The notes beneath the pieces were generated by a model. That model saw nothing but the letters and a program-made list of their open reading frames with translations, was not told the DNA's origin and did not search any database. Both the position numbers and the translations under genes were made by a program. DNA of 64,000 nt from Gloeobacter kilaueensis JS1. Lineage in GTDB: Bacteria; Cyanobacteriota; Cyanobacteriia; Gloeobacterales; Gloeobacteraceae. Positions 17,034 through 32,461 of the stretch are shown one piece after another. How positions within the stretch are numbered: the first letter of the stretch is position 1; the number at the start of each line of letters is the position of its first letter. Where the stretch lies: positions 2,542,001-2,606,000 of the forward strand of contig NC_022600.1 in NCBI RefSeq assembly GCF_000484535.1. Reading direction: 5' to 3'.

Positions 17034-18341
17034 CTACGCACCCTGGCTTGCTTCCTGTGCCTCTATGTAAGCGAGAATCCGCTCTTTGTAGTTGTGCCGG
17101 AAACTGTCACAGCGATTGTCATGCAATACCGGATCCATCGCATGATGGGCACAACCACCCATACACACCGGCAGGGCGATACAGTTCGTGCATTCAGGAT
17201 CGGTGAATGGATCGTAGTTGAGCCACTTGTGTAATCGAGTGTTGCAGTTTTTGTAGTCGCTGATATGGCCAATCACCTCTTGTGGATTGCCGACGGAATA
17301 CGGGCACTTGTACAGTTCACCCTTGCTACCTACAATGAGTTCTTGAGAACGAACTGCCGTACAGGGCGTACCAACAGGTTTGGGCAACGAGGGCTTATCA
17401 AAACCGTAGCATTGAGCCAATTTCATAAACTCAAGCTTTATCTTCGCAAGCTCGATGTTGCTCAAGCAGCAGGAAGAGTAGCTAGCCGACGGTGCGGACG
17501 CTCCATCGTTGACGGCAACGATCTGTCCAGGATAGATGTGCAGCTTATCGCTCAGCCCCTCAGCCTGCAGAATCTGGAGAAGTTTCTCGACGTGACTCGT
17601 ATTCTCCTGGCTGAGGTTGACTCGAATAGAAACGGACAGGTAATTGACTGCATGATGAATGTTTGCAAGGATTTTCTTGAACGTGCCTTTGCCATTGACA
17701 AGAGGACGCATCAAATCATGGACTTCAGGCGGTCCATCAAGCGTGATTTGAGCTGTGGCTACCCGACGCTTACGTAAAAGGTCACAGGTTTGTTCATCCA
17801 GCAAATAGCCATTGGTAATTATGTCGGCAACATAGGTGACGCCTGCTCGATCACAGCGTTCAATAAATTGATCGGATAGAGCGAGCAGTTGCTCCTTGCC
17901 AAGTAAAGGCTCGCCGCCAAACCAGCAGACCTCAAATCGCTGAAGCTTTTCTATTTTTTCATCAAGGAACTGTAAAAGTGCCATCTGTACTTCGGATTGA
18001 AGTATCGAACCATGCTTGTCTTCAAAGCAGTAGGGACAGCTAAAGTTGCAACCTAGACTTGTAACGATAGTAAGACCAAGCCTTGGAGTATGGTGGCGAG
18101 TAGAGTGATATCTACTCGCCACCCACTTCACCTCATCAGCATTTTCAGGAATTATGACACGATTCTCGACAAGCTTTAGAAGCAGCTGCGGTGAAATACA
18201 GGCATCTTGAGAACTAGCGATAAAGCTCTGAAGTGCCTCGAACTCTGGGTGAGAAAGCCGGAAAAAACCTGAGGTGGATGTGTTGAATACATAGCTGAAA
18301 TGTACACGATGGATCCATATGTTGTACTTTGATTCCTGCAT
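17034..18341 (-). CDS. Radical SAM/SPASM peptide maturase
   Basis: A 435-residue radical SAM enzyme. The [4Fe-4S] site is CxxxCxxC at C98, C102 and C105 (CNFSCPYC), followed by FGGEPLL (141-147) and TLDGPPEVHD. The C-terminal SPASM domain supplies further cluster ligands (C346, C384, C387, C393, C397, C411; CTNCIALPVCMGGC). The first 95 or so residues look like the peptide-recognition region seen in RiPP maturases. The architecture predicts modification of a ribosomal peptide, probably the product of 18528-18860 upstream on the same strand. The chemistry (thioether, C-C or other crosslink) cannot be read off. Confidence 0.88.
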   Translation of the reverse strand: MQESKYNIWIHRVHFSYVFNTSTSGFFRLSHPEFEALQSFIASSQDACISPQLLLKLVENRVIIPENADEVKWVASRYHSTRHHTPRLGLTIVTSLGCNFSCPYCFEDKHGSILQSEVQMALLQFLDEKIEKLQRFEVCWFGGEPLLGKEQLLALSDQFIERCDRAGVTYVADIITNGYLLDEQTCDLLRKRRVATAQITLDGPPEVHDLMRPLVNGKGTFKKILANIHHAVNYLSVSIRVNLSQENTSHVEKLLQILQAEGLSDKLHIYPGQIVAVNDGASAPSASYSSCCLSNIELAKIKLEFMKLAQCYGFDKPSLPKPVGTPCTAVRSQELIVGSKGELYKCPYSVGNPQEVIGHISDYKNCNTRLHKWLNYDPFTDPECTNCIALPVCMGGCAHHAMDPVLHDNRCDSFRHNYKERILAYIEAQEASQGA

Positions 18342-18475
18342 CTCTCGCCTTTTATTGCTATCGAGCTGGTCAGTAGAGCTGAGAAAACGTCAGATTTCAT
18401 GCTAGGCTAAGCAATCCCTGAGCTATGACTCGAAGATCGGAGCTTTGATATTTACTCAGCTCCTATTATAGTAAG

Positions 18476-18495
18476 CAGTAACACGGGTATTACTG
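18476..18495 (-). promoter_or_regulatory. Hairpin between peptide and maturase genes
   Basis: CAGTAATACCCGTGTTACTG on the minus strand can form an 8-pair stem (one G-T pair) with a 4-base loop, between the 110-residue peptide gene and the maturase gene. No T-run follows; instead TATAAT (18470-18465) comes next. It may be a weak attenuator or RNA processing site that sets the peptide/enzyme ratio, or part of a separate maturase promoter. Confidence 0.35.
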
Positions 18496-18527
18496 TTTCA
18501 AAGTTGCAATAGTTTCGTTGGTATGGC

Positions 18528-18860
18528 TTACTTTGGTGGCCTTATACCCCCATTACAAACTTGGGGCTGTATACCCCCACCACACATACTCAGAAAATGA
18601 TCGAATGATGAGCCGCCCGCTTCCTGAATTTTTTTCGCAAGGGTTTCAATATCGACCGGTACTGATTTTTGGAGTGCTTGTAGCTCTGCACTACTCGGAT
18701 CAGTGAGATTGATTTTGCCCAGGCTGAGTTGGCTGGCGCTTTCGTCAGTAGGAGCAGTAGTGGTAGCTTCCGATGGTATAGCAGTAGCCGCGATCATGGC
18801 CGCGATCATACTGGCAGCCGCCAATAATGTAAGCAGATCTAACTTGGGATTCTTACGCAT
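18528..18860 (-). CDS. Small exported peptide, candidate RiPP precursor
   Basis: A 110-residue protein with an N-terminal hydrophobic helix (LLTLLAAASMIAAMIAATA, 10-28) behind a Lys/Arg start. A Thr/Ser-rich stretch follows, then an acidic amphipathic region (DIETLAKKIQEAGGSSFDHF), and it ends in CGGGIQPQVCNGGIRPPK (93-110). AGGGAG lies 8 bases before the ATG, so the gene is real. The Gly-rich two-Cys tail, the leader-like middle and the radical SAM/SPASM gene 186 bases downstream suggest a modified peptide core at the C-terminus. I know no family with this tail. The alternative is a small secreted protein with a disulfide. Confidence 0.6.
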   Translation of the reverse strand: MRKNPKLDLLTLLAAASMIAAMIAATAIPSEATTTAPTDESASQLSLGKINLTDPSSAELQALQKSVPVDIETLAKKIQEAGGSSFDHFLSMCGGGIQPQVCNGGIRPPK

Positions 18861-19345: not shown

Positions 19346-22300
19346 CTAAGTATGGGGTTGTTGAGTAGAAAACTTTGAATCACAAAGACTTCGTTCTTTG
19401 CTCCTCAGATTTGCATTTAGTTGAAGATAGTCATATATCCATCTACAGGCTTTACTCGATAAGTCCTTCGTTGCAGATTGCCAGTTCCATAGTATTACTT
19501 TGCCATCGCCATCAGCAGAAACAATTTGTGAGCTATTGAGATTGAAGTCAGCAGTTCTTACTGCACTGTTTGAGTTCTGCAGTGTGGCGATCAAGAAACC
19601 TTCTGCATTCCAGATTTTAATGCTACCATCTCTGGAGCTTGAAACGATAGTGTGTCCATCTTTGCTAAAGTTAATATCGGTAACTTCTCTGTTGTGACCC
19701 TGAAGGTTTGCAATAAGCTTGCTGTCGTGGATTCTCCAGAGCTTAGCTGTTTGATCTTCGCTACTGGAAGCAAGAATAGCTCCATCAGGGCTAAAAGCGA
19801 GGCTTGTAACTACACCCGTGTGTCCTTTTAAGGTTTTTTTCGTTGAACCGTTCATATCTAATAAGATTACTGAGTTATTTTGGTTTGTTACTGCAATTAG
19901 TTTGCCATCAGGACTAAGAGCAATGGCAGGACCGGCTGCACAATCTCGAAAAGTTCTGATAAGAGTTCCGTCTTTGCGCCACAGCTTCACAGTTCCATCG
20001 GTACTGGCAGTAACGATTAAGCTTCCACTTGCTCCGTAGGCAACTGTGGAGACGGCACGTGTAAAGCCATTCAAGGTATGCAAAAGTTTTCCATCGGTTA
20101 AGCGCCAGATCCTAACTTTCAAGTTCTCGTAGGCTGCAGCAATCGTTAAGTTATCTGGGCTAAAACTGAGGGATGTTACTGTACCATCGGCCAGACTGCC
20201 GGTAGTTTTAAGCATTTTGATCAGTTTGCCATCCAGGTTCGTCAAGCGAATGATCTGATCAGTTCCTCCAGAGGCAACCAGTTTACCATCGGGACTAAAA
20301 CTAGCGACAGCATGGCCGCTATCATGGGTTTGGAGTCGGCGAACAAGTCCGTTGTCCATACTCCAAAGACGCATCGTACCATCTTCGCCAATGGAAACCA
20401 GTGATTTTCCACTGCGGTTAAACTTCAACTGGTGGATGCCACCTTGATGACCACGAATCGTTTCAACCAGATTGCCGCCCTCGGTATTCCAGATTTTGAT
20501 TGAGCTATCGTCACTTCCCGAGGCGAGCGAGCGGTTATCAGGGCTGAAAGCGATCGACCAGACGGCGTCCGTGTGCTCCTGCAAGGTTTTTAGAAGCAGG
20601 GTGTCACTGCTCTTCCATAGTTTTACAGTCTTATCCCAACTTGCTGATGCGATGAGCTTTCCATCGGGTGAGTAGCGAACTTTAAAGACAGTGTCTGTGT
20701 GACCTTTGAGCGTGTGCATCAAGCTGCCGTTCGCTAGATTCCAGAGCTTGATCTGCTTATCCGCACCTGAAGAAGCGAGAACGTGTCCATCTGGCCTGAA
20801 GCTGACGCTTGTCGCTCCGCCTTTGTGGGCGTTGAAAGTTTTAAGTAAGGTTCCGTTGTGAACGTTCCACAGTCTGACAGTGCCATCCCAACTCGCAGAA
20901 GCAAGGGTCTTGCTATCGGGGCTGAAGGCAATTTCCATCACACCGTCGGTGTGCCCGCGTAAAATCCGCAGCGGCTCCCCGCTAGCACTCCAGAGTCTGA
21001 TCGTGCCGTCCCGGCTGGAGGAGGCGAAGATGTTGCCCTGGGGGCTGTATTCGACGCAGTACACCCAATTCTCGTGGCCAGGCAGGGTCTTGAGTAGCTT
21101 GCCTTCAGGGCTCCAGAGTTTGAGCTGCCTTCCGGCGGTAGCGATGGTCTTTTCATCGTGACTGAAGCTGACGCCGCTGAGCCAGGCACCGTCCACCTGG
21201 ATGCGATTCATCTCCTGGGCGAGGTAGAGGATCTTGTTCAGCGTGTCCCTGGTGCTGGTCTTCAGGTCGTCCGGCACGCCAGCCGTGCGCTGCAAAAGCT
21301 GATTGGCCTTGATGCTCGCGATCAATGCTTCCAGTTGTTGGGAGGAAGCGAAGTAGCCGCCTGCCGAGGCGTTGAGCGCTTCGATCTCGCTGCGACGCGC
21401 ACTCTGGGTCTGCCCGTAGAAAAGAATGCCAAAGCCTAGAGCGGCTACGGCCAGAAGGACCATCAATCCGGCAATTCCCTGGGTGTAGCGCAGTTGTCTA
21501 TTGGCGCGGCGCTGTTGGGCGCGCTTTTCGGCGAGGCAGGCTTCGATGAACTGGCAAACTTCGGCGGAGAGTTCGTCGCTGTGGCGGGTATAGATTTCTT
21601 CGGCCTCAGCGAGGCGCACGCCGCGCAACAGAAAGTCCGGCTGAAAGGCACGCTGTCGCCAGAGCTGGGCCGCCTGCTCGATCTGCCGCTGGGCGCGCAG
21701 GCGGGTGCGGTTTTCATCGAGCCACCAGCGCAGGGTAGACCAGTAGCGAATCAGGATTTCGTGGGCGACTTCGACTGTGATTTCTTGCTTGAAGGCATCA
21801 AAGCTGTCGGCCTCGGCTATACCCCGGCTACGCCCGGCACTCTCGCTTGCTTCCGCCCCGACGACGACGAGCTTGGCCGCCGTCAGTGCCTGCAGCGTCT
21901 CCTCCACCAGGGGTGCAGGATAGCGCTCGACGCTTAATTCCGAGCGCGGGATGCGCCGTCGGGTGTCCTCGGTGCCCTCGCCCAACTGGGTGAGCGACAA
22001 AAAGATCCACCGGGCACACGCCTGGGACTCGGGGCTCAGGGCACTGTAGACCGCCTGGGCTTTGTTTTCGAGCGCTCCCCTCAAGCCCCCGATCTGCTGC
22101 TGGTAGCTCTGGAGGGTGAGGCCGCCGTCGGTGCGCTTCTCCCAGAGCTGTTCGAGGACGAATTCTAATAGAGGCAACTCGCCTGGTGACTGGGTCAACT
22201 CCTGCAGCAACACCTCTACCAGTTCCGGCTCGACGCCCAGGTTGACTTTTTGGGCGGGGCCGAGGATGACCTGGCGGTACTCCTGCTCGTTCAAGCAGGA

Positions 22301-24469
22301 GGGCACTAGTTCGTGGGAGCTGTTGAGGTAGGCGGCGAGGGCCGGAATTTCGAGGCAAGGAGCGATAAAGTCGGTTCTAAGTGTGACGACAAGCTTGAAG
22401 CGGTCGGCGGCGCAGAAGAGGGCACCGAGCAGCAAGTCGAGGAAGAGTTGGCGATCGGTAGGGGAGGCGAGGGTAAAGATCTCCTCGAACTGGTCGATGA
22501 CCAGAACGACCATCGGCTCGGGGCGCGTGCGCAGCCACTGCACAAAGCCTTCCGTTCCCAGGTGGAGCAGTCCCTCGATCCGCTCTTGATCGAGCGCACG
22601 TTCTCTGGGGGTGCCGCTGTCGGCCAGCCGTTGACTGAGGGCAGACAGGGGCTGCGCGCCCGGTTTGAAACTTTGAATCCACCAGTCCTGGGAGCCGGGC
22701 AGGTGCCGCCCCTGGCGCAGCTGGGCAATCAATCCCGCCTGGACGACGGAGGACTTGCCGCTGCCGGAAGCGCCGACCACTGCCAGAAAGGGAGCCTGGG
22801 CGATGTGCTGCAACAGCTGGCGGGTGAGCGCCTCGCGCCCAAAAAAATACGGGGCGTTCTGCTCGCCGAAGGCCCGCAGGCCCATGTAGGGGCAGATATT
22901 GAGGGCGGTGGTCCGAGCCTGCTGGGCAGTAGCAGCAAAATGGACCGGCAACACCTCGATCACGCTGGGCGGGCCGGACAGCTCGATGTGCAGGGCAAGA
23001 TCGCCCAGCGCCTGCAGCTGAAAGGCCCAGTTGGCTGCTGAAAGTCCCGCAGACGGTTCAGCCGCCTTGAGGGTGGCAAGCAGTGCCTGGGCAAAATGGT
23101 CGCCCGGACTGCTGGAGGCGATCAGGCACTGGCTGCGCCGGGCTCCGTTTCGCAACTGCTCGACCCATTCTTCGAGGGCAGAAGCTCCCGGACAGTCGAG
23201 AATAACCAGTTGCTGACCATTGCTGCAGCTGCGCAGTTCGCGATTCAACCACAGCAGGTGAATGCGCACGCCGTCTCCCAGTCTGAGCCAGCTATTTCCC
23301 TCCTCGTCGGTTTCAAGCTGCCCGCGCAGGTAGAGCACAACCGTTTCGCCCGTTGCGGCGGACGGGGAAAGATTGCCCGGACGCAAGATGGCCTGGATTG
23401 CCTCGCGCACCTGCCGCCAGTCGCTACTGGGTCGCGGCCAAAAATCCAGCTCGTCGAAGTTGCCCTTCTGGCGAAGCATGCGTCCCAGGGCCAGGGTGGT
23501 CTCCGCCTCATCTGCTAAAGCATCGATCACCAGGGCCCGGCGCGGTCGGGCCGCCTGCAGGCTGCTCGGGCGGGTGCCGATTACCAGTTCGCCGACAAAT
23601 TCGACGATCTTTTTCGGAGTCTGGAGCGAGTAAAGGGCGTGCTGCTCGCCGACGCCCCGCCGGGCGCGCTGGCTATTTTCGAGGCGCAGTTGCTGGTTGA
23701 CGTTGTCGATGTAGCGCAGGGTGCCGTGATAGACGTACTTGTAGAGGCCGTCCATCTCGATGAGCCCCTCGGCATTGGCCGCCTCGCCGCGCAGTCCGCG
23801 CATCAAAAAGTAGGTGAACACACCGTGGCCAAGGCCCGGAAACTCCCAGGACTGCTGATCCCGGTCGCAGGAGAGCATCGCGTAAAAGCCCCGGCTCTGG
23901 GCAGCGTACTCCCGCAGAGGTTCGACGAGGCCGGCGGTCGGATCGCTGCTGCTTGTTTCTGCGGAGGCGCTGCCTTGCAAGCGCAGGCTGCCGCTGTGGC
24001 AGGCGTCGAGCCAGACCAGTTGCTGCCGGGCCCGGCAATTGCCGAAGCGCAAAAGCAACTGCCGCAGACCCAGGCCGGTGTCGGTGAGGGCGTCGAAGCG
24101 GGTGTCCGCCAGGCAGAGTATTGTCTGAGCGCTCGCCGGATCGAGAACGCCGTGGCCACAAAAATAAACGAGCAGCGTGTCCTGGGGCATAGCCTCGGCG
24201 ACGATCCGATCGAGGCTGGCGGCGATAGCCCTGTGGGTGGGCGGACTCTTGGCAAAGTCGTGGTGGATCAGCAGTTCTTTATTAGGAAATGGTGCCGTCG
24301 CCTCCAGCAGCGCCTCGGCAATTCCCTCACAATCGGCAGCACAATAGCCGAGGGGGGCCAGCGGCGATTCTTGATACTGGTTGACGCCGATGAGCAACAG
24401 CCACAACTTCGCCTCACCACTGGTGAGGACGCGGGCGCTGCGGCTGCTACCGACGACACGAGGAGGCAT
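19346..24469 (-). CDS. Caspase / nSTAND ATPase / WD40 signalling protein
   Basis: A 1707-residue protein. An active-looking caspase (C14) domain occupies about 20-290, with catalytic His106 (CGHG) and Cys157 (DACHSG). A second caspase-like segment (about 305-500) keeps LVILDCPGAS but has VVLYLRGQL where the His motif should be, so it looks inactive. The nSTAND ATPase region starts at about 525 (CPYMGLRAFGEQNAPYFFGRE) with Walker A GASGSGKSS (566-574) and Walker B VLVIDQFEEI. One membrane helix lies near 993-1016, then about 14 WD40 repeats (about 1095-1675), enough for two propellers. The expected role is to sense a trigger, oligomerise through the ATPase and release proteolysis. The WD40 part is lower in GC than the N-terminal half. 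Confidence 0.9.
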   Translation of the reverse strand: MPPRVVGSSRSARVLTSGEAKLWLLLIGVNQYQESPLAPLGYCAADCEGIAEALLEATAPFPNKELLIHHDFAKSPPTHRAIAASLDRIVAEAMPQDTLLVYFCGHGVLDPASAQTILCLADTRFDALTDTGLGLRQLLLRFGNCRARQQLVWLDACHSGSLRLQGSASAETSSSDPTAGLVEPLREYAAQSRGFYAMLSCDRDQQSWEFPGLGHGVFTYFLMRGLRGEAANAEGLIEMDGLYKYVYHGTLRYIDNVNQQLRLENSQRARRGVGEQHALYSLQTPKKIVEFVGELVIGTRPSSLQAARPRRALVIDALADEAETTLALGRMLRQKGNFDELDFWPRPSSDWRQVREAIQAILRPGNLSPSAATGETVVLYLRGQLETDEEGNSWLRLGDGVRIHLLWLNRELRSCSNGQQLVILDCPGASALEEWVEQLRNGARRSQCLIASSSPGDHFAQALLATLKAAEPSAGLSAANWAFQLQALGDLALHIELSGPPSVIEVLPVHFAATAQQARTTALNICPYMGLRAFGEQNAPYFFGREALTRQLLQHIAQAPFLAVVGASGSGKSSVVQAGLIAQLRQGRHLPGSQDWWIQSFKPGAQPLSALSQRLADSGTPRERALDQERIEGLLHLGTEGFVQWLRTRPEPMVVLVIDQFEEIFTLASPTDRQLFLDLLLGALFCAADRFKLVVTLRTDFIAPCLEIPALAAYLNSSHELVPSCLNEQEYRQVILGPAQKVNLGVEPELVEVLLQELTQSPGELPLLEFVLEQLWEKRTDGGLTLQSYQQQIGGLRGALENKAQAVYSALSPESQACARWIFLSLTQLGEGTEDTRRRIPRSELSVERYPAPLVEETLQALTAAKLVVVGAEASESAGRSRGIAEADSFDAFKQEITVEVAHEILIRYWSTLRWWLDENRTRLRAQRQIEQAAQLWRQRAFQPDFLLRGVRLAEAEEIYTRHSDELSAEVCQFIEACLAEKRAQQRRANRQLRYTQGIAGLMVLLAVAALGFGILFYGQTQSARRSEIEALNASAGGYFASSQQLEALIASIKANQLLQRTAGVPDDLKTSTRDTLNKILYLAQEMNRIQVDGAWLSGVSFSHDEKTIATAGRQLKLWSPEGKLLKTLPGHENWVYCVEYSPQGNIFASSSRDGTIRLWSASGEPLRILRGHTDGVMEIAFSPDSKTLASASWDGTVRLWNVHNGTLLKTFNAHKGGATSVSFRPDGHVLASSGADKQIKLWNLANGSLMHTLKGHTDTVFKVRYSPDGKLIASASWDKTVKLWKSSDTLLLKTLQEHTDAVWSIAFSPDNRSLASGSDDSSIKIWNTEGGNLVETIRGHQGGIHQLKFNRSGKSLVSIGEDGTMRLWSMDNGLVRRLQTHDSGHAVASFSPDGKLVASGGTDQIIRLTNLDGKLIKMLKTTGSLADGTVTSLSFSPDNLTIAAAYENLKVRIWRLTDGKLLHTLNGFTRAVSTVAYGASGSLIVTASTDGTVKLWRKDGTLIRTFRDCAAGPAIALSPDGKLIAVTNQNNSVILLDMNGSTKKTLKGHTGVVTSLAFSPDGAILASSSEDQTAKLWRIHDSKLIANLQGHNREVTDINFSKDGHTIVSSSRDGSIKIWNAEGFLIATLQNSNSAVRTADFNLNSSQIVSADGDGKVILWNWQSATKDLSSKACRWIYDYLQLNANLRSKERSLCDSKFSTQQPHT

Positions 24470-27560: not shown

Positions 27561-28724
27561 CTATTCCGGCGGCAGCGCGTACTGGGCGACGATCTTTTTA
27601 GCGTATCTGGGGACGTGCCGCTCCAGCTTGCCGGGGTGGCGGCGGCGGACATAAAGGTAGTTGCGGGCAAAGTGCGAGTCGATCGAAAAGCGGGCGTACT
27701 CCAGTCCACGGGGGCCGATCTTCTCGATCACCAGCCCCATCAGCTTCGCTATCCACATCGGCAGCGTCACCGCCTGATCGTAGGCGGCGATGCCCTGCTG
27801 CACGGCAGCGAAGCGGTTGCCCGATTCGACGATCCGGCCAAATTCCAGCTCGTCGCGCACGAGATCCAGAAGCACCCGGCCCTGGGCGTTGCGCTCGACG
27901 ATCCACTGCCAGCCAAATTCTGCGCCCATATAGCCCACCACCAGATCCGCGAGGCCGTTGACGTAATCGAAACAGCTGAGGCAGGAAGGAGCGAATACCT
28001 CCTTGAGCGCCTTCGTGTTCAGACCAAAGAAAGGCACTTTTTCAACCGAGCCGTCGGCGTGTTTGAAGTGGACTCGAAAATCCTGCATGAATTCGTAGTG
28101 GACGACCGTTGCGGGCGAGCGGCTGGTCGTGTCGAGAAATTGCTGCAGGCCCTGGCGGGAGACGTTATCGACGCAGGGGGTGCCCAGAACGTAGAGCGCT
28201 TCGAGGCCCAGCCTGTCTTGAACGGTGCGCAGCGCCTGGATCTGACAGCCCACACCGATCGCAAGAAGCCGCCTTGTGCCGATTTTGGGAATCTCGTCTA
28301 AGACCGAGAGGTTGGGGCTGAGGGTGGGCTTGTTGACGCGGGCGGCGAGCACCTCGGCGGGCGTGCGGGCGAGCACGGGCCGGGGAGTGAAGCGGTCCTC
28401 GCTATCGGCGGCGACACAGAGCACCGTGTCCACCAGTCCGGTTTCGAGGGCGCGCATCCCGATCGTGCTTACGATGCCACTCCACTGCGCCCCGCTAACG
28501 GGCTGCCGCTTGCGGGCGGCGTACATCTGGCGATGCACCCCAAAGTACAGCTCGCGCTCGTCTTCGAGATCGCGCTCGCGCCCGTGGCTTTTGACCTCCA
28601 GTTCATCGACGTGCTGGGTGATAAAGGCGCAGGCCCACTTGGCATAGCGCAGGTAGCTGGTATCGCACAGACCGCATTCGCTGCACAGCTCAAGGGCGGG
28701 ACGATTTTTAGGCTTTGGATGCAC
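27561..28724 (-). CDS. bciB: Ferredoxin-dependent divinyl (proto)chlorophyllide 8-vinyl reductase
   Basis: A 387-residue protein of the F420 hydrogenase beta-subunit superfamily. The N-terminal CSECGLC (C14, C17, C20), further Cys pairs (CLSCFDY) and the starting pattern RPALELCSECGLCDTSYLRY match the cyanobacterial BciB group. BciB reduces the 8-vinyl group of divinyl chlorophyll precursors, using electrons from ferredoxin. The related enzyme 7-hydroxymethyl chlorophyll reductase is the main alternative. It is divergent from the ATPase/DUF4276 module. Confidence 0.85.
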   Translation of the reverse strand: MHPKPKNRPALELCSECGLCDTSYLRYAKWACAFITQHVDELEVKSHGRERDLEDERELYFGVHRQMYAARKRQPVSGAQWSGIVSTIGMRALETGLVDTVLCVAADSEDRFTPRPVLARTPAEVLAARVNKPTLSPNLSVLDEIPKIGTRRLLAIGVGCQIQALRTVQDRLGLEALYVLGTPCVDNVSRQGLQQFLDTTSRSPATVVHYEFMQDFRVHFKHADGSVEKVPFFGLNTKALKEVFAPSCLSCFDYVNGLADLVVGYMGAEFGWQWIVERNAQGRVLLDLVRDELEFGRIVESGNRFAAVQQGIAAYDQAVTLPMWIAKLMGLVIEKIGPRGLEYARFSIDSHFARNYLYVRRRHPGKLERHVPRYAKKIVAQYALPPE

Positions 28725-28864
28725 GCGCCTACCTGGAACGAAACGTCTGCAGTCTAGCGCAATCTGACTTTACTTGAGTTGGAGAACAGTCGGACAAACA
28801 GAGCAACCACCAAACTGCCCGATAAGTTATGCTATCCAGTGGTTGATTGGGGACAGATATCTCG

Positions 28865-30238
28865 ATGCTTACCCGGATCGAAATCGATGGATTCAAAACC
28901 TTCGAGGATTTTGGGATCGATATCGGTCCTCTGCTGGTAGTTCTAGGCCCAAACGCGACTGGCAAATCAAACCTCTTCGATGCCATCCGCTTTCTATCAA
29001 ACCTTGCTTCCAAAGATTTGCGTTCGGCAGTCAAAGGTTTGCGGGGAGAACCTCACGAACTTTTCCGTATTCAACCCGATGGCCAACCCGGTACAAAAAT
29101 GTCCTTTGCTGTGGAGTTGCTGCTTGAATCTAAAGCCACTGATCCGTGGGGGACACAAGTCCAAATTACTCATAATCGAGTCCGCTACGAAGTTGATATT
29201 GAACGGCGAATGGATGAAAAAGGTACGGAGCGACTGGTAGTTGTTAAGGAGGAAGCTATTCCTATCAATGCAAAAGATGATAGGCTCTTCGGCTCCTCTT
29301 TTCATGCGCCATCTAAACAATTTAGGGACACATTCATGCGATACAGCAGGAAAACCCCGTGGTTGACTACCGAACTTGAGGGTGTAAATGGTAAGCCGAG
29401 TTTCAAGATCTTTCAGGATGGAAGAGCAGGCAGGTTCCTGCTGGCTGAGGCAGCAGAAGCAACTGTTCTTTCCAGCATAACAACCACTGAATACAGGCAT
29501 CTCTACGCCATCCGCGAAGAAATGAATTCATGGAAATTCTTGCAACTTGACCCTGCTGTCATGAGATTACCCAGTTCAAAATTAGATGATGAGACCCTTA
29601 AATCTGATGGTTCAAATTTAGCCACTGTCCTGGCTCGAATTCAGATGGAGACTGCCAGTTCAACGCAACCGCAGGGTGTGTTAAAAGACATCGCAGCCGA
29701 TCTTTCATCGTTAATTTCTGGCATCATTAGCTTACAAGTGCGAGACGATAGAGTGAATAAAAGATACGAAGTAAACCTGTCTGTTCGAGAAGGCTATGCT
29801 TTAAGCTCCCGAATTGTATCCGATGGAACTTTACGGATACTTGCCTTGCTTACACTACTGCATGATCCGCGCCAGCGAGGGCTCATATGTTTTGAAGAAC
29901 CTGAAAATGGAATTCACCCTTACCGACTTAAGACACTGATAAATCGCCTACGAGAGTTAGTTACTAAGCCCTGGAACACTGATATTTCGTTCGAGGAGCC
30001 GTTTTCTCAAATTCTTATGAATAGTCATTCACCCGTCGTGCTTTCAAGCTTAGAAGAAGGTGAGAAGATGTTCTCTGATATGGTCAGCACTGTATCGCCC
30101 ACAGAGCAGGAAGTAGCTCGCAAAACACGCCTCAGACCTGTCAGGGACCAGGGTGAGCTTTTACCAGGTGAGAAACAAAATTACGTCAGTGCTTTTGAAG
30201 TTAAAAATTACCTGGACAGTGTAGATAGAGCCGGATAG
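28865..30238 (+). CDS. AAA (ABC/OLD-like) ATPase of a two-gene defence-type module
   Basis: A 457-residue ATPase with the SMC/RecF-like split head. Walker A is GPNATGKSN (28-36), a signature-like VSDGTLRILALL is followed by Walker B LICFEEPENGIHP, and the switch His lies in MNSHSP. There is no long coiled coil. The ATG at 28865 (MLTRIEIDGFK) with upstream GGGGA is preferred over one 18 bases earlier. The next gene starts at the base after its stop codon. ATPases of this kind, paired with TOPRIM-like nucleases, occur in anti-phage systems such as OLD, PARIS and AbiL. The gene is AT-richer than its neighbours. Confidence 0.85.
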   Translation: MLTRIEIDGFKTFEDFGIDIGPLLVVLGPNATGKSNLFDAIRFLSNLASKDLRSAVKGLRGEPHELFRIQPDGQPGTKMSFAVELLLESKATDPWGTQVQITHNRVRYEVDIERRMDEKGTERLVVVKEEAIPINAKDDRLFGSSFHAPSKQFRDTFMRYSRKTPWLTTELEGVNGKPSFKIFQDGRAGRFLLAEAAEATVLSSITTTEYRHLYAIREEMNSWKFLQLDPAVMRLPSSKLDDETLKSDGSNLATVLARIQMETASSTQPQGVLKDIAADLSSLISGIISLQVRDDRVNKRYEVNLSVREGYALSSRIVSDGTLRILALLTLLHDPRQRGLICFEEPENGIHPYRLKTLINRLRELVTKPWNTDISFEEPFSQILMNSHSPVVLSSLEEGEKMFSDMVSTVSPTEQEVARKTRLRPVRDQGELLPGEKQNYVSAFEVKNYLDSVDRAG

Positions 30239-30919
30239 ATGCGTTATCTAGGTTTAGCATTGTACGCCGAAGGCAAAACAGACTATAGCTTCCTTCCGCC
30301 GCTTCTACGTAGACTATCAGAGTCAATCTGCCTGGCGTCCGCCAACACTATAATTGATATTGGTGATGTACACCCACTTACCTTCAATCAGAGTCAAGTT
30401 ATTCATCCAGAACGAGATCACACCACTCGCGTAATCGAGCTTATTTGTAAAGCTCAAGGAGTTTTCAATATCCTCTTTTACCATACAGATGGAGCCGGCG
30501 ATTACGATGCTGCTTTTGAACAGCGATTTAGGCCAATCACTCTAGCTTACTGCGAACGTACTGACTCCCTGGACGAGAGGCTGGTTGCTGTCATTCCAAT
30601 TCGAGAAATGGAGGCGTGGACGCTCGTCGATGGCGATGCGATTCGTTCAGTGTTCGGTACTACCATGAGCAATAAAGAGCTGCAAGTTCCAGAGCCCTGT
30701 CACCTCGTAGAAAGCATTCCTGACCCCAAGCGTCATCTAGAGCAAATGTACACTCTCATCGTCGGAAGTGCAGTTCGAGCAAGGCGAGCGAAAGTTAGCT
30801 CATTTCTCAGTTCGCTGGGAGAATCCGTATCGCTGGAGGTACTACGATTGCTTCCAGCATTCAAAAAAATGGAAGAAGACCTGACTCAGGCTCTCTGCCA
30901 GCTTGGATATTTAAGTTAA
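30239..30919 (+). CDS. DUF4276 (TOPRIM-like) partner protein
   Basis: A 226-residue protein with the DUF4276 pattern. EGKTD (11-15) sits at the first strand, HTDGAGDYD carries acidic residues (D84, D88), and IPIREMEAWTLVD (119-131) is the usual signature. The acidic set resembles a TOPRIM metal site, so a nuclease role is likely. It begins immediately after the ATPase stop codon, so the pair is translated together. It converges with the carboxyltransferase gene. Which defence system this belongs to, if any, is not settled. Confidence 0.8.
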   Translation: MRYLGLALYAEGKTDYSFLPPLLRRLSESICLASANTIIDIGDVHPLTFNQSQVIHPERDHTTRVIELICKAQGVFNILFYHTDGAGDYDAAFEQRFRPITLAYCERTDSLDERLVAVIPIREMEAWTLVDGDAIRSVFGTTMSNKELQVPEPCHLVESIPDPKRHLEQMYTLIVGSAVRARRAKVSSFLSSLGESVSLEVLRLLPAFKKMEEDLTQALCQLGYLS

Positions 30920-30931
30920 TCGGTCACAGCA

Positions 30932-32461
30932 TTAGCGGGTCAGATAGATGCGCGTGCCGCCCAGCTCACAGGCGAAACTATCGAGGGTGGAAGCCTGAGC
31001 AAAGGCCCGCACCAAGTCGTTGATCGACTTGAGGTCGATCGGAAATTTTTTGACAGCTGGAGCCGGAGGCTGCCCGTCTCGGGCCTGAAAGTACTTTTTG
31101 GCCACCTGGGGAAACAGGGCGTAGGTGAGGGCGTCTTCTTCGCAGCGCGCCCATTGGGCACTCTCCTCGACGGCGCGCTCCCAGCCAGGTTCGAGGTCGT
31201 CGGCGGGGCGATGGGCGATAGGCTCGTGGCCGTCGGCGGTGACGCGGGCGTAGAGAGAATCGGCGATCGGGTAGGGCGGGCGGCCATAGCGGCCCAGCAG
31301 ATAGTCGCGCACCTCAGCCGGGATGATCTTGTAGCGTTCGCCGGTAAGGACGTTGAGCACGGCCTGGGTACCGACGATCTGGCTGGTGGGTGTGACCAGG
31401 GGCGGATAGCCCAGATCGGCCCGCACCTTCGGCAGTTCCTTGAGCACTTCTTGAAGGCGGTGGGAGGCGCGCTGCTCGTCGAGCTGGGCAATGAGGTTGG
31501 TGATCATCCCACCGGGCACCTGATGGGAGAGCACGCGGGTGTCGATGATCGTCTGACGAATCGGAGCGTTACCGGCGTCGCGGAAGATGCGCTCGAAGTA
31601 TTCGGCCACGTCGATGAGGGCATCGATGTCGAGTCCGGTGTCAAAGGGCGTATCGCGCAGAACGACCACCATCGTCTCGGTGGCCGGTTGGCTGGAGCCC
31701 AGCGCCAGGGGCGAGATCGCCGTATCGACGATGTTGGCTCCCTTTTGAATCGCCTCCCAGTAGGCCATCGAGGCCATCCCCGAGAGGGAGTGGGCGTGCA
31801 TCTGAATCGGCAGGGTGCCCACCACCGGGCGCAGAGCTTCGATGAGCCGACCCGCCGTGTCGGGCTTGAGCAGACCGGCCATGTCTTTGATGCACAGCGA
31901 ATCGACGCCCAGACCAACCAGTTCGCGGGCGACGCCGGTGTAGTGCTCAAGGTCGTGTACGGGACTTACGGTATAGACCAGCGTTCCCTGGACATGGGCT
32001 CCGCACTCCTTGCCGGTCTCGATTGTCCGCTGCAGGTTGCGCACGTCGTTGAGGGCGTCGAAGGTGCGGATGATGTTGATGCCGTTGGCCACCGAGCGCC
32101 GGATAAAGCGCTCGACGATGTCGTCGGGATAGTGGCGGTAGCCCAGGAGGTTCTGGCCGCGCACCAGCATCTGCAGCTGGGTGTCGGGCATCTCGCGGCG
32201 CAACACCTTGAGCCGCTCCCAGGGATCTTCGCCCAAAAAGCGGATGCAGGCGTCGAAGGTTGCCCCGCCCCAGACTTCCATCGAATGGAAACCGATGCGG
32301 TTCATGCGGGCTGCTACCGGCAGCATCTGGGCTGTCGTCATCCGGGTCGCCAGAAGCGACTGGTGCGCATCGCGGAAGGTCGTGTCGGTAACGCCGACTC
32401 GGGAGGGAACAGCGGAGCGCAGATCCCTCGCGCTATCGGAATCGACGGCGAGCGAACTCAT
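30932..32461 (-). CDS. Pyruvate/oxaloacetate carboxyltransferase domain protein without biotin domain
   Basis: A 509-residue carboxyltransferase resembling the oxaloacetate decarboxylase alpha subunit, pyruvate carboxylase subunit B and transcarboxylase 5S. The TIM barrel carries TDTTFRDAHQSLLATR near the start, FDALNDVRN, the metal-site region IQMHAHSLSGMA, and a PYC-type C-terminal domain. No biotinyl domain with MKM is present, so biotin would have to come on another protein. The trxA gene lies 29 bases upstream on the same strand. The physiological reaction is uncertain. Confidence 0.82.
   Translation of the reverse strand: MSSLAVDSDSARDLRSAVPSRVGVTDTTFRDAHQSLLATRMTTAQMLPVAARMNRIGFHSMEVWGGATFDACIRFLGEDPWERLKVLRREMPDTQLQMLVRGQNLLGYRHYPDDIVERFIRRSVANGINIIRTFDALNDVRNLQRTIETGKECGAHVQGTLVYTVSPVHDLEHYTGVARELVGLGVDSLCIKDMAGLLKPDTAGRLIEALRPVVGTLPIQMHAHSLSGMASMAYWEAIQKGANIVDTAISPLALGSSQPATETMVVVLRDTPFDTGLDIDALIDVAEYFERIFRDAGNAPIRQTIIDTRVLSHQVPGGMITNLIAQLDEQRASHRLQEVLKELPKVRADLGYPPLVTPTSQIVGTQAVLNVLTGERYKIIPAEVRDYLLGRYGRPPYPIADSLYARVTADGHEPIAHRPADDLEPGWERAVEESAQWARCEEDALTYALFPQVAKKYFQARDGQPPAPAVKKFPIDLKSINDLVRAFAQASTLDSFACELGGTRIYLTR

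Follow-up and report, generated by a model that had tools for sequence, protein, structure and literature searches.

What does a pair of adjoining genes of atypical composition encode in Gloeobacter kilaueensis JS1, and does it act against phages? The pair lies in a 64,000-nucleotide window (bases 2542001-2606000) of a genome that consists of one contig of 4,724,791 bases. Gene A runs from ATG 28865 to the stop codon TAG 30236-30238 (an alternative start, TTG 28847, would make the product 6 aa longer), and gene B opens at ATG 30239, immediately 3' of that stop with a gap of 0, its frame ending in TAA 30917-30919. The abutting arrangement described at 28865-30919 in the initial annotation is thus confirmed. 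By its sequence profiles the pair is a further example of the catalogued candidate system HEC-01, for which an anti-phage role has candidate status. It is considered reasonably probable that the pair is an acquired HEC-01 module in which an ATPase gates a Toprim-like nuclease that acts on infection. The features that bear on this reading are collected in Table 1.

Table 1. Features of the gene pair and its insertion site, in window positions
Feature	Position	Strand	Basis
HEC-01A: SMC/Rad50/OLD-type ABC ATPase, 457 aa	28865..30238	+	ORF, Pfam, PADLOC, model, structural matches
Walker A GPNATGKSN, protein A residues 28-36	28946..28972	+	motif reading, alignment
ABC signature SDGT, protein A residues 319-322	29819..29830	+	motif reading, alignment
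Walker B CFEEPENG, protein A residues 342-349	29888..29911	+	motif reading, alignment
His switch NSHSP, protein A residues 386-390	30020..30034	+	motif reading, alignment
HEC-01B: DUF4276 protein, 226 aa, probable Toprim-like nuclease	30239..30919	+	ORF, Pfam, PADLOC, model, structural matches, profile bridge
Putative Toprim motif 1 EGKTD, protein B residues 11-15, E11 and D15 invariant	30269..30283	+	motif reading, alignment, profile comparison
Putative Toprim motif 2, protein B residues 82-84, HxD replacing DxD	30482..30490	+	alignment, profile comparison
PIREMEAW, protein B residues 120-127, E125 and W127 invariant; candidate second metal ligand	30596..30619	+	alignment, OLD literature
DPK, protein B residues 162-164, K164 invariant; candidate catalytic lysine	30722..30730	+	alignment, OLD literature
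Inserted segment, approximate extent, no terminal repeats found	28786..30930	.	congener comparison
Left flank, FrhB/FdhB-like protein, conserved in genus	27561..28724	-	relatives in congeners, Pfam
Right flank, pyruvate/oxaloacetate carboxylase-like protein, conserved in genus	30932..32461	-	relatives in congeners, Pfam

Protein A matches Pfam AAA_21 (6.5e-28) and protein B matches Pfam DUF4276 (6.1e-16), both above the gathering score. In PADLOC, the HEC-01A profile PDLC04184 covers residues 1-455 of protein A (1.3e-193) and the HEC-01B profile PDLC04210 covers residues 1-225 of protein B (4.1e-79); the second-best profile on protein A is also HEC-01A (1.3e-39), and all 11 PADLOC families matched by protein B are HEC-01B. 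No Pfam domain other than DUF4276 was found in protein B in a search to E 1, and its NCBIfam search gave no match, while the nearest NCBIfam to protein A is MADS3 (8.8e-40, 137.1 bits against an equivalog cut-off of 420). The assignment to HEC-01 follows from these PADLOC, Pfam and NCBIfam results. The defence-type pair proposed initially is upheld, since HEC-01A and HEC-01B are both matched at full length; of the PARIS, AbiL, OLD and Septu systems with which comparison had been suggested, the pair is by profile none, and the named match is HEC-01. HEC-01 is listed among the systems called in gut Desulfovibrio in a 2025 paper (PMC12724379), and an excerpt of a 2026 paper reports antiviral activity for several Hma-embedded candidates and names HEC-06 (PMC12988326). 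The word DUF4276 appears in no paper of the literature searched.

The pair occupies an AT-rich insert of ~2.1 kb, flanked on each side by a conserved housekeeping gene. The flank proteins are 86–88% (left) and 82% (right) identical to their counterparts in three further genomes from the genus, and the distance between the flank genes is 2207 bp here versus 186, 322 and 901 bp in these congeners. On the left, homology to the congeners breaks off around base 28785; on the right it begins again at the stop codon of the carboxylase gene, and the pair has no counterpart at this site in any of the three. The GC content of genes A and B is 0.457 and 0.473, and the GC3 of the pair is 0.42, compared with 0.66–0.80 in the seven flanking genes measured. 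The initial argument for acquisition from AT-rich composition therefore stands, and horizontal acquisition of the pair is supported by both its composition and its absence at the site in all three congeners. Transposon or integrase ends were considered as the borders of the insert and rejected, as only one direct and one inverted match, each of 8 bases and chance-like, occur between the borders. Carriage by a phage or plasmid was likewise rejected, since the matches were distant and confined to one of 50,697 phage records and one of 72,556 plasmid records, and the viral contigs searched yielded no confirmed relative.

The same site holds other small genes in related genomes. In the congener with 901 bp between the flank genes it contains an RHH and PIN pair (vapBC-like, as read from the translation), and the end of this vapBC-like pair is present in the 322-bp congener, which points to a turnover spot of small modules. 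This setting raises the question of whether the A–B pair is itself a toxin-antitoxin or addiction module, in which A restrains the B nuclease and addiction, not phage defence, accounts for the persistence of the pair. Such a module would likewise consist of two co-translated genes, and the vapBC-like occupants of the site are in keeping with it; the strong PADLOC matches, the restriction-operon loci described below and the sensor class of the ATPase fit infection-gated defence instead. Addiction as the sole explanation is thus regarded as distinctly unlikely, with the qualification that being a toxin-antitoxin pair does not preclude being an abortive-infection system.

A scan of a genome collection with protein B identified 474 relatives, of which the best 80 were analysed. 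An A-type ATPase lies directly upstream of B in 78 of these best 80 of 474; one exception is at a contig end and the other is a single fused frame. In all 73 pairs of this set with settable starts the A–B gap is between -13 and +12 bp, and it is between -4 and +6 bp in 64 of the 73. Abutting genes are thus a rule of the family, from which we infer that A and B are co-translated and form a complex. In locus L108 (3534-5321) the ATPase and DUF4276 parts share one 595-aa frame, as a natural fusion or through a frameshift; L108 and L134 both resemble fused frames for which a sequencing frameshift is possible. In a quick tree of 82 ATPases, spanning 13 phylum-level groups, the window protein groups with eight rows, seven from cyanobacteria and one from Chloroflexi (SH-aLRT 96), and its closest relative in the tree set, from Symplocastrum torsivum, is 62% identical. 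A second, different HEC-01-like pair is present in the same genome (G000) at 3883356-3885475 (L049, 5357-7476). Its DUF4276 gene has an in-frame TAG that falls after the EAW motif and before the DPK motif, and intact relatives of this second pair occur in two of the three congeners.

The motifs ascribed to the ATPase at the outset (Walker A and B, signature and His switch) hold up in an alignment of 74 sequences, which includes 73 of the 78 upstream relatives. Residues G28, N30, G33, K34, S35, N36, S319, G321, E345, H388 and S389 are invariant in all 74, and the Walker B residue E344 is the same in 73. The predicted model of protein A (pLDDT 93.6, pTM 0.92) aligns to SMC, Rad50 and PtuA heads, with Z of 18–23 over 254–312 residues for the best 50 entries, and SMC and RecF profiles match the protein at the P-loop. 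Protein A is accordingly read as an ABC-type ATPase that should act as a dimer; dimeric action is established for this class. The kinship with SMC, RecF and Rad50 would also suit a DNA repair or recombination pair, in which a Rad50- or RecF-like ATPase and a nuclease perform a housekeeping role. The composition of the pair is atypical for such a role, the pair is missing at the site in all three congeners, and its distribution is sparse. Because the ATPase class is common, the HEC-01A profile matches 372 of 373 genomes, so only strong matches were counted; strong HEC-01B matches (about 80 bits or more) occur in just 6 of 386 genomes of the phylum, and any match at all in 33 of 386. A housekeeping repair pair is therefore the least probable of the explanations considered.

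Protein B carries the motifs reported for it initially as a DUF4276 protein, EGxTD (EGKTD, residues 11-15) and REMEAW (residues 122-127). In an alignment of 73 sequences (the window protein and 72 of the best 80 relatives, with 8 partial sequences left out), E11, G12, D15, D84, P120, E125, W127 and K164 are invariant. The predicted model (pLDDT 94.3, pTM 0.91) has strands at residues 2-9, 39-47, 78-82 and 114-118 that alternate with helices, and the motifs follow strands 1 and 3. According to an excerpt of the OLD literature, Toprim domains have their invariant Glu at strand 1 and the DxD motif at strand 3, and the catalytic set of Bp OLD is E400, E404, D455, D457, T506, E508 and K562 (PMC6755086). 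In protein B, E11 follows strand 2-9 in 73 of 73 sequences, which is the position of the Toprim Glu after strand 1. Residues E11, D15, D84, E125 and K164 agree in kind and order with E400, E404, D457, E508 and K562 of Bp OLD; the pairing of E125 and K164 with E508 and K562 relies on that agreement and not on superposition. At the DxD position, D84 is present in all 73 sequences, and the first residue is His (H82) in 72 of them. Thus, the Toprim-like acidic residues of the earlier reading gain from the model, the structural matches and the profile comparisons described below, and they fall short at the first Asp of the DxD. Owing to this HxD, protein B is termed Toprim-like rather than a canonical Toprim.

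Structure comparison leaves room for a second interpretation of B. In VIA, the protein B model aligns to PARIS 8ux9_A over 184 residues (Z 7.2, rmsd 5.4) and to the OLD C-terminal region 6nk8 over 171 residues (Z 6.7, rmsd 5.3), where a Z below 8 may reflect merely a common arrangement. The top rows, above AriB and OLD, are Argonaute MID domains, with Z up to 8.8 over 120 residues. Foldseek returned no significant match for the model (best E 0.03), and a search for sequence relatives in the PDB gave two matches, both with E > 0.05 and unrelated names. With MID domains ranking first and a best Foldseek E of 0.03, structure alone is indecisive on the Toprim fold. It is therefore conceivable that B is no nuclease but a regulator of A whose Rossmann-like or MID-like domain binds nucleotides or nucleic acid ends, an interpretation to which the absent Asp at the first DxD position would also lend itself.

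Profile comparisons provide a bridge from HEC-01B to the OLD Toprims. First, HEC-01B matches a divergent DUF4276 set of 23 cyanobacterial proteins (23 of 24 loci) at P 1.5e-18. Second, this divergent set, in which the DxD is present, matches OLD-like Toprims at P 1.9e-5; the Glu and the DxD of the Toprim coincide in this alignment. Third, the B alignment combined with its divergent relatives matches DUF4435 (a set of 15 of 21 loci) at P 0.00013 and OLD at 0.0029. Direct comparison of HEC-01B is weak with OLD Toprims (P 0.027, probability 1.8%) and modest with DUF4435 (P 0.0013, probability 18.8%), and the divergent DUF4276 set alone matches DUF4435 weakly (P 0.011); with reversed templates as controls, P was 0.59 and 0.2. 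The PADLOC MAD4 profile matches seven places, five of them OLD-Toprim proteins and one a DUF4276 protein, and the seventh matched protein is found by the HEC-01B profile at E 4.2e-5. The Toprim reading is retained over MID on the motif positions, the aligned length, which is greater for AriB and OLD than for MID, and the profile bridge. These, together with the five invariant charged residues in Toprim/OLD active-site order, make a non-nuclease B quite improbable. Protein B is most probably a divergent Toprim-like nuclease with an HxD. The rank of the MID domains above AriB, the non-significant Foldseek result, the weak direct profile matches and the His in the DxD all weigh against the Toprim and defence readings.

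The genomic setting of the relatives was surveyed in the 61 of 273 neighbouring ORFs that are tight and co-directional, with 80 of 110 distant ORFs, drawn from 176, as a control. Among the 61 tight neighbours, single specificity-subunit models match five and an MTase-like mad2 model matches six, with 220 families matched in all; among the 80 control ORFs 26 families match, and the 25 listed each match one protein. Four of the five specificity-subunit neighbours were traced to their loci. Relatives of hsdR, hsdS and hsdM are present at five of the 80 loci (best 80 of 474): hsdS and hsdM stand on either side of the pair in L077, L083, L084 and L085, and in L117 the pair is located beside hsd genes. 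These five rows group together in the ATPase tree (support 92, not starred), and their adjacency indicates that the restriction-operon loci represent one lineage. Tight neighbours are otherwise mostly non-defence genes, and other relatives adjoin housekeeping genes, like the window pair, whose immediate neighbours in a Pfam scan of seven flanking genes are housekeeping. The housekeeping neighbours here, the mostly non-defence neighbours elsewhere and the restriction of the operon loci to one clade count against a defensive role, as does a report (PMC12796447) that one archaeal class of OLD ATPases functions in the cell cycle rather than in defence. On balance the pair is probably defensive, and an anti-phage role is predicted for it.

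It is plausible that the system operates as a guarded effector. Protein A most likely holds its partner B inactive and would sense a sign of infection; B, most likely a two-metal Toprim-like nuclease, would then be released or switched on by A, and the freed nuclease would cut host or phage nucleic acid and stop the infection, in the manner of AriA and AriB from PARIS. Within this scheme we infer Toprim catalysis by B, the A–B complex and activation by infection. According to an excerpt on PARIS, AriA senses phage proteins, whereupon an AriB Toprim dimer is released and tRNA is cut (PMC12409363); an excerpt on PrrC describes a protein silenced by its linked type I enzyme and triggered by an anti-restriction peptide (PMC2610378). 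By analogy with these systems and OLD, DNA cutting as in OLD appears as likely for B as the cutting of tRNA. A bolder proposal, which is rather unlikely, holds that HEC-01B is an unrecognised branch of Toprim with an HxD metal site and an RNA target, and that HEC-01 is a two-chain PrrC/PARIS-like guard that cuts tRNA and fires on restriction inhibition, one clade still residing in type I operons and the others standing alone.

Comparison with known systems places the pair closest in gene content to HEC-01 itself (PADLOC Hma-embedded candidate 1): both genes are full length, adjacent and in the same order, although the window pair stands alone between housekeeping genes and is not embedded in another defence system. 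As in PARIS, an ABC ATPase and a Toprim-like nuclease (a predicted fold in the case of B) are encoded on separate genes. AriB of PARIS is a DUF4435 protein, whereas B belongs to DUF4276, has no DUF4435 match in Pfam to E 1 and carries HxD for DxD. An excerpt of PMC10568477 describes PARIS as two genes, sometimes one fused gene, and OLD and GajA as single chains, the latter with the helicase gene GajB. The window pair shares with OLD and Gabija GajA an ABC ATPase, a predicted Toprim and matching kinds of catalytic residues, but it consists of two chains, and no helicase was found among the seven flanking genes scanned. MADS (MAD3 ATPase and MAD4) resembles the pair through the MADS3 match of protein A and the DUF4276 protein matched by the MAD4 profile; it differs in that protein A stays far below the MADS3 cut-off and B has no MAD4 match up to E 1, and the seven flanking genes scanned include no other MADS-like gene. 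In Septu the partner is PtuB HNH, unlike the DUF4276 protein here, and AbiLi matches protein A at 2e-17, far below HEC-01A, with B matching HEC-01B families only. PrrC and RloC share the control of a nuclease by an ABC ATPase, as proposed for HEC-01, but their nuclease domain is of another kind and on the ATPase's own chain. The linkage of PrrC to type I restriction-modification, as described in PMC2610378, is shared with one HEC-01 clade.

HEC-01 was already in the defence catalogue; what is added here is a testable effector model, consisting of five candidate catalytic residues, an unusual HxD site and near-obligate pairing with an ATPase. Two aspects are uncommon: DUF4276 read as a Toprim with HxD, and the occurrence of one clade in or beside type I restriction operons, which hints at what HEC-01 may guard. 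The insertion site, empty of the pair in close relatives, is a natural setting for judging the pair's effect.

Two further loci in the window were noted. An AT-rich region at 17034-18860 encodes a radical SAM protein (PF04055) adjoining an ORF of 110 aa that has no Pfam match and whose C-terminus contains Cys and Gly; these may be a peptide-modifying enzyme and its precursor. At 19346-24469, a 1707-aa protein combines an nSTAND1 NTPase with WD40 repeats, the WD40 part being AT-richer than the rest, and its N-terminus reads as caspase-like, so that a STAND-type sensor is possible.
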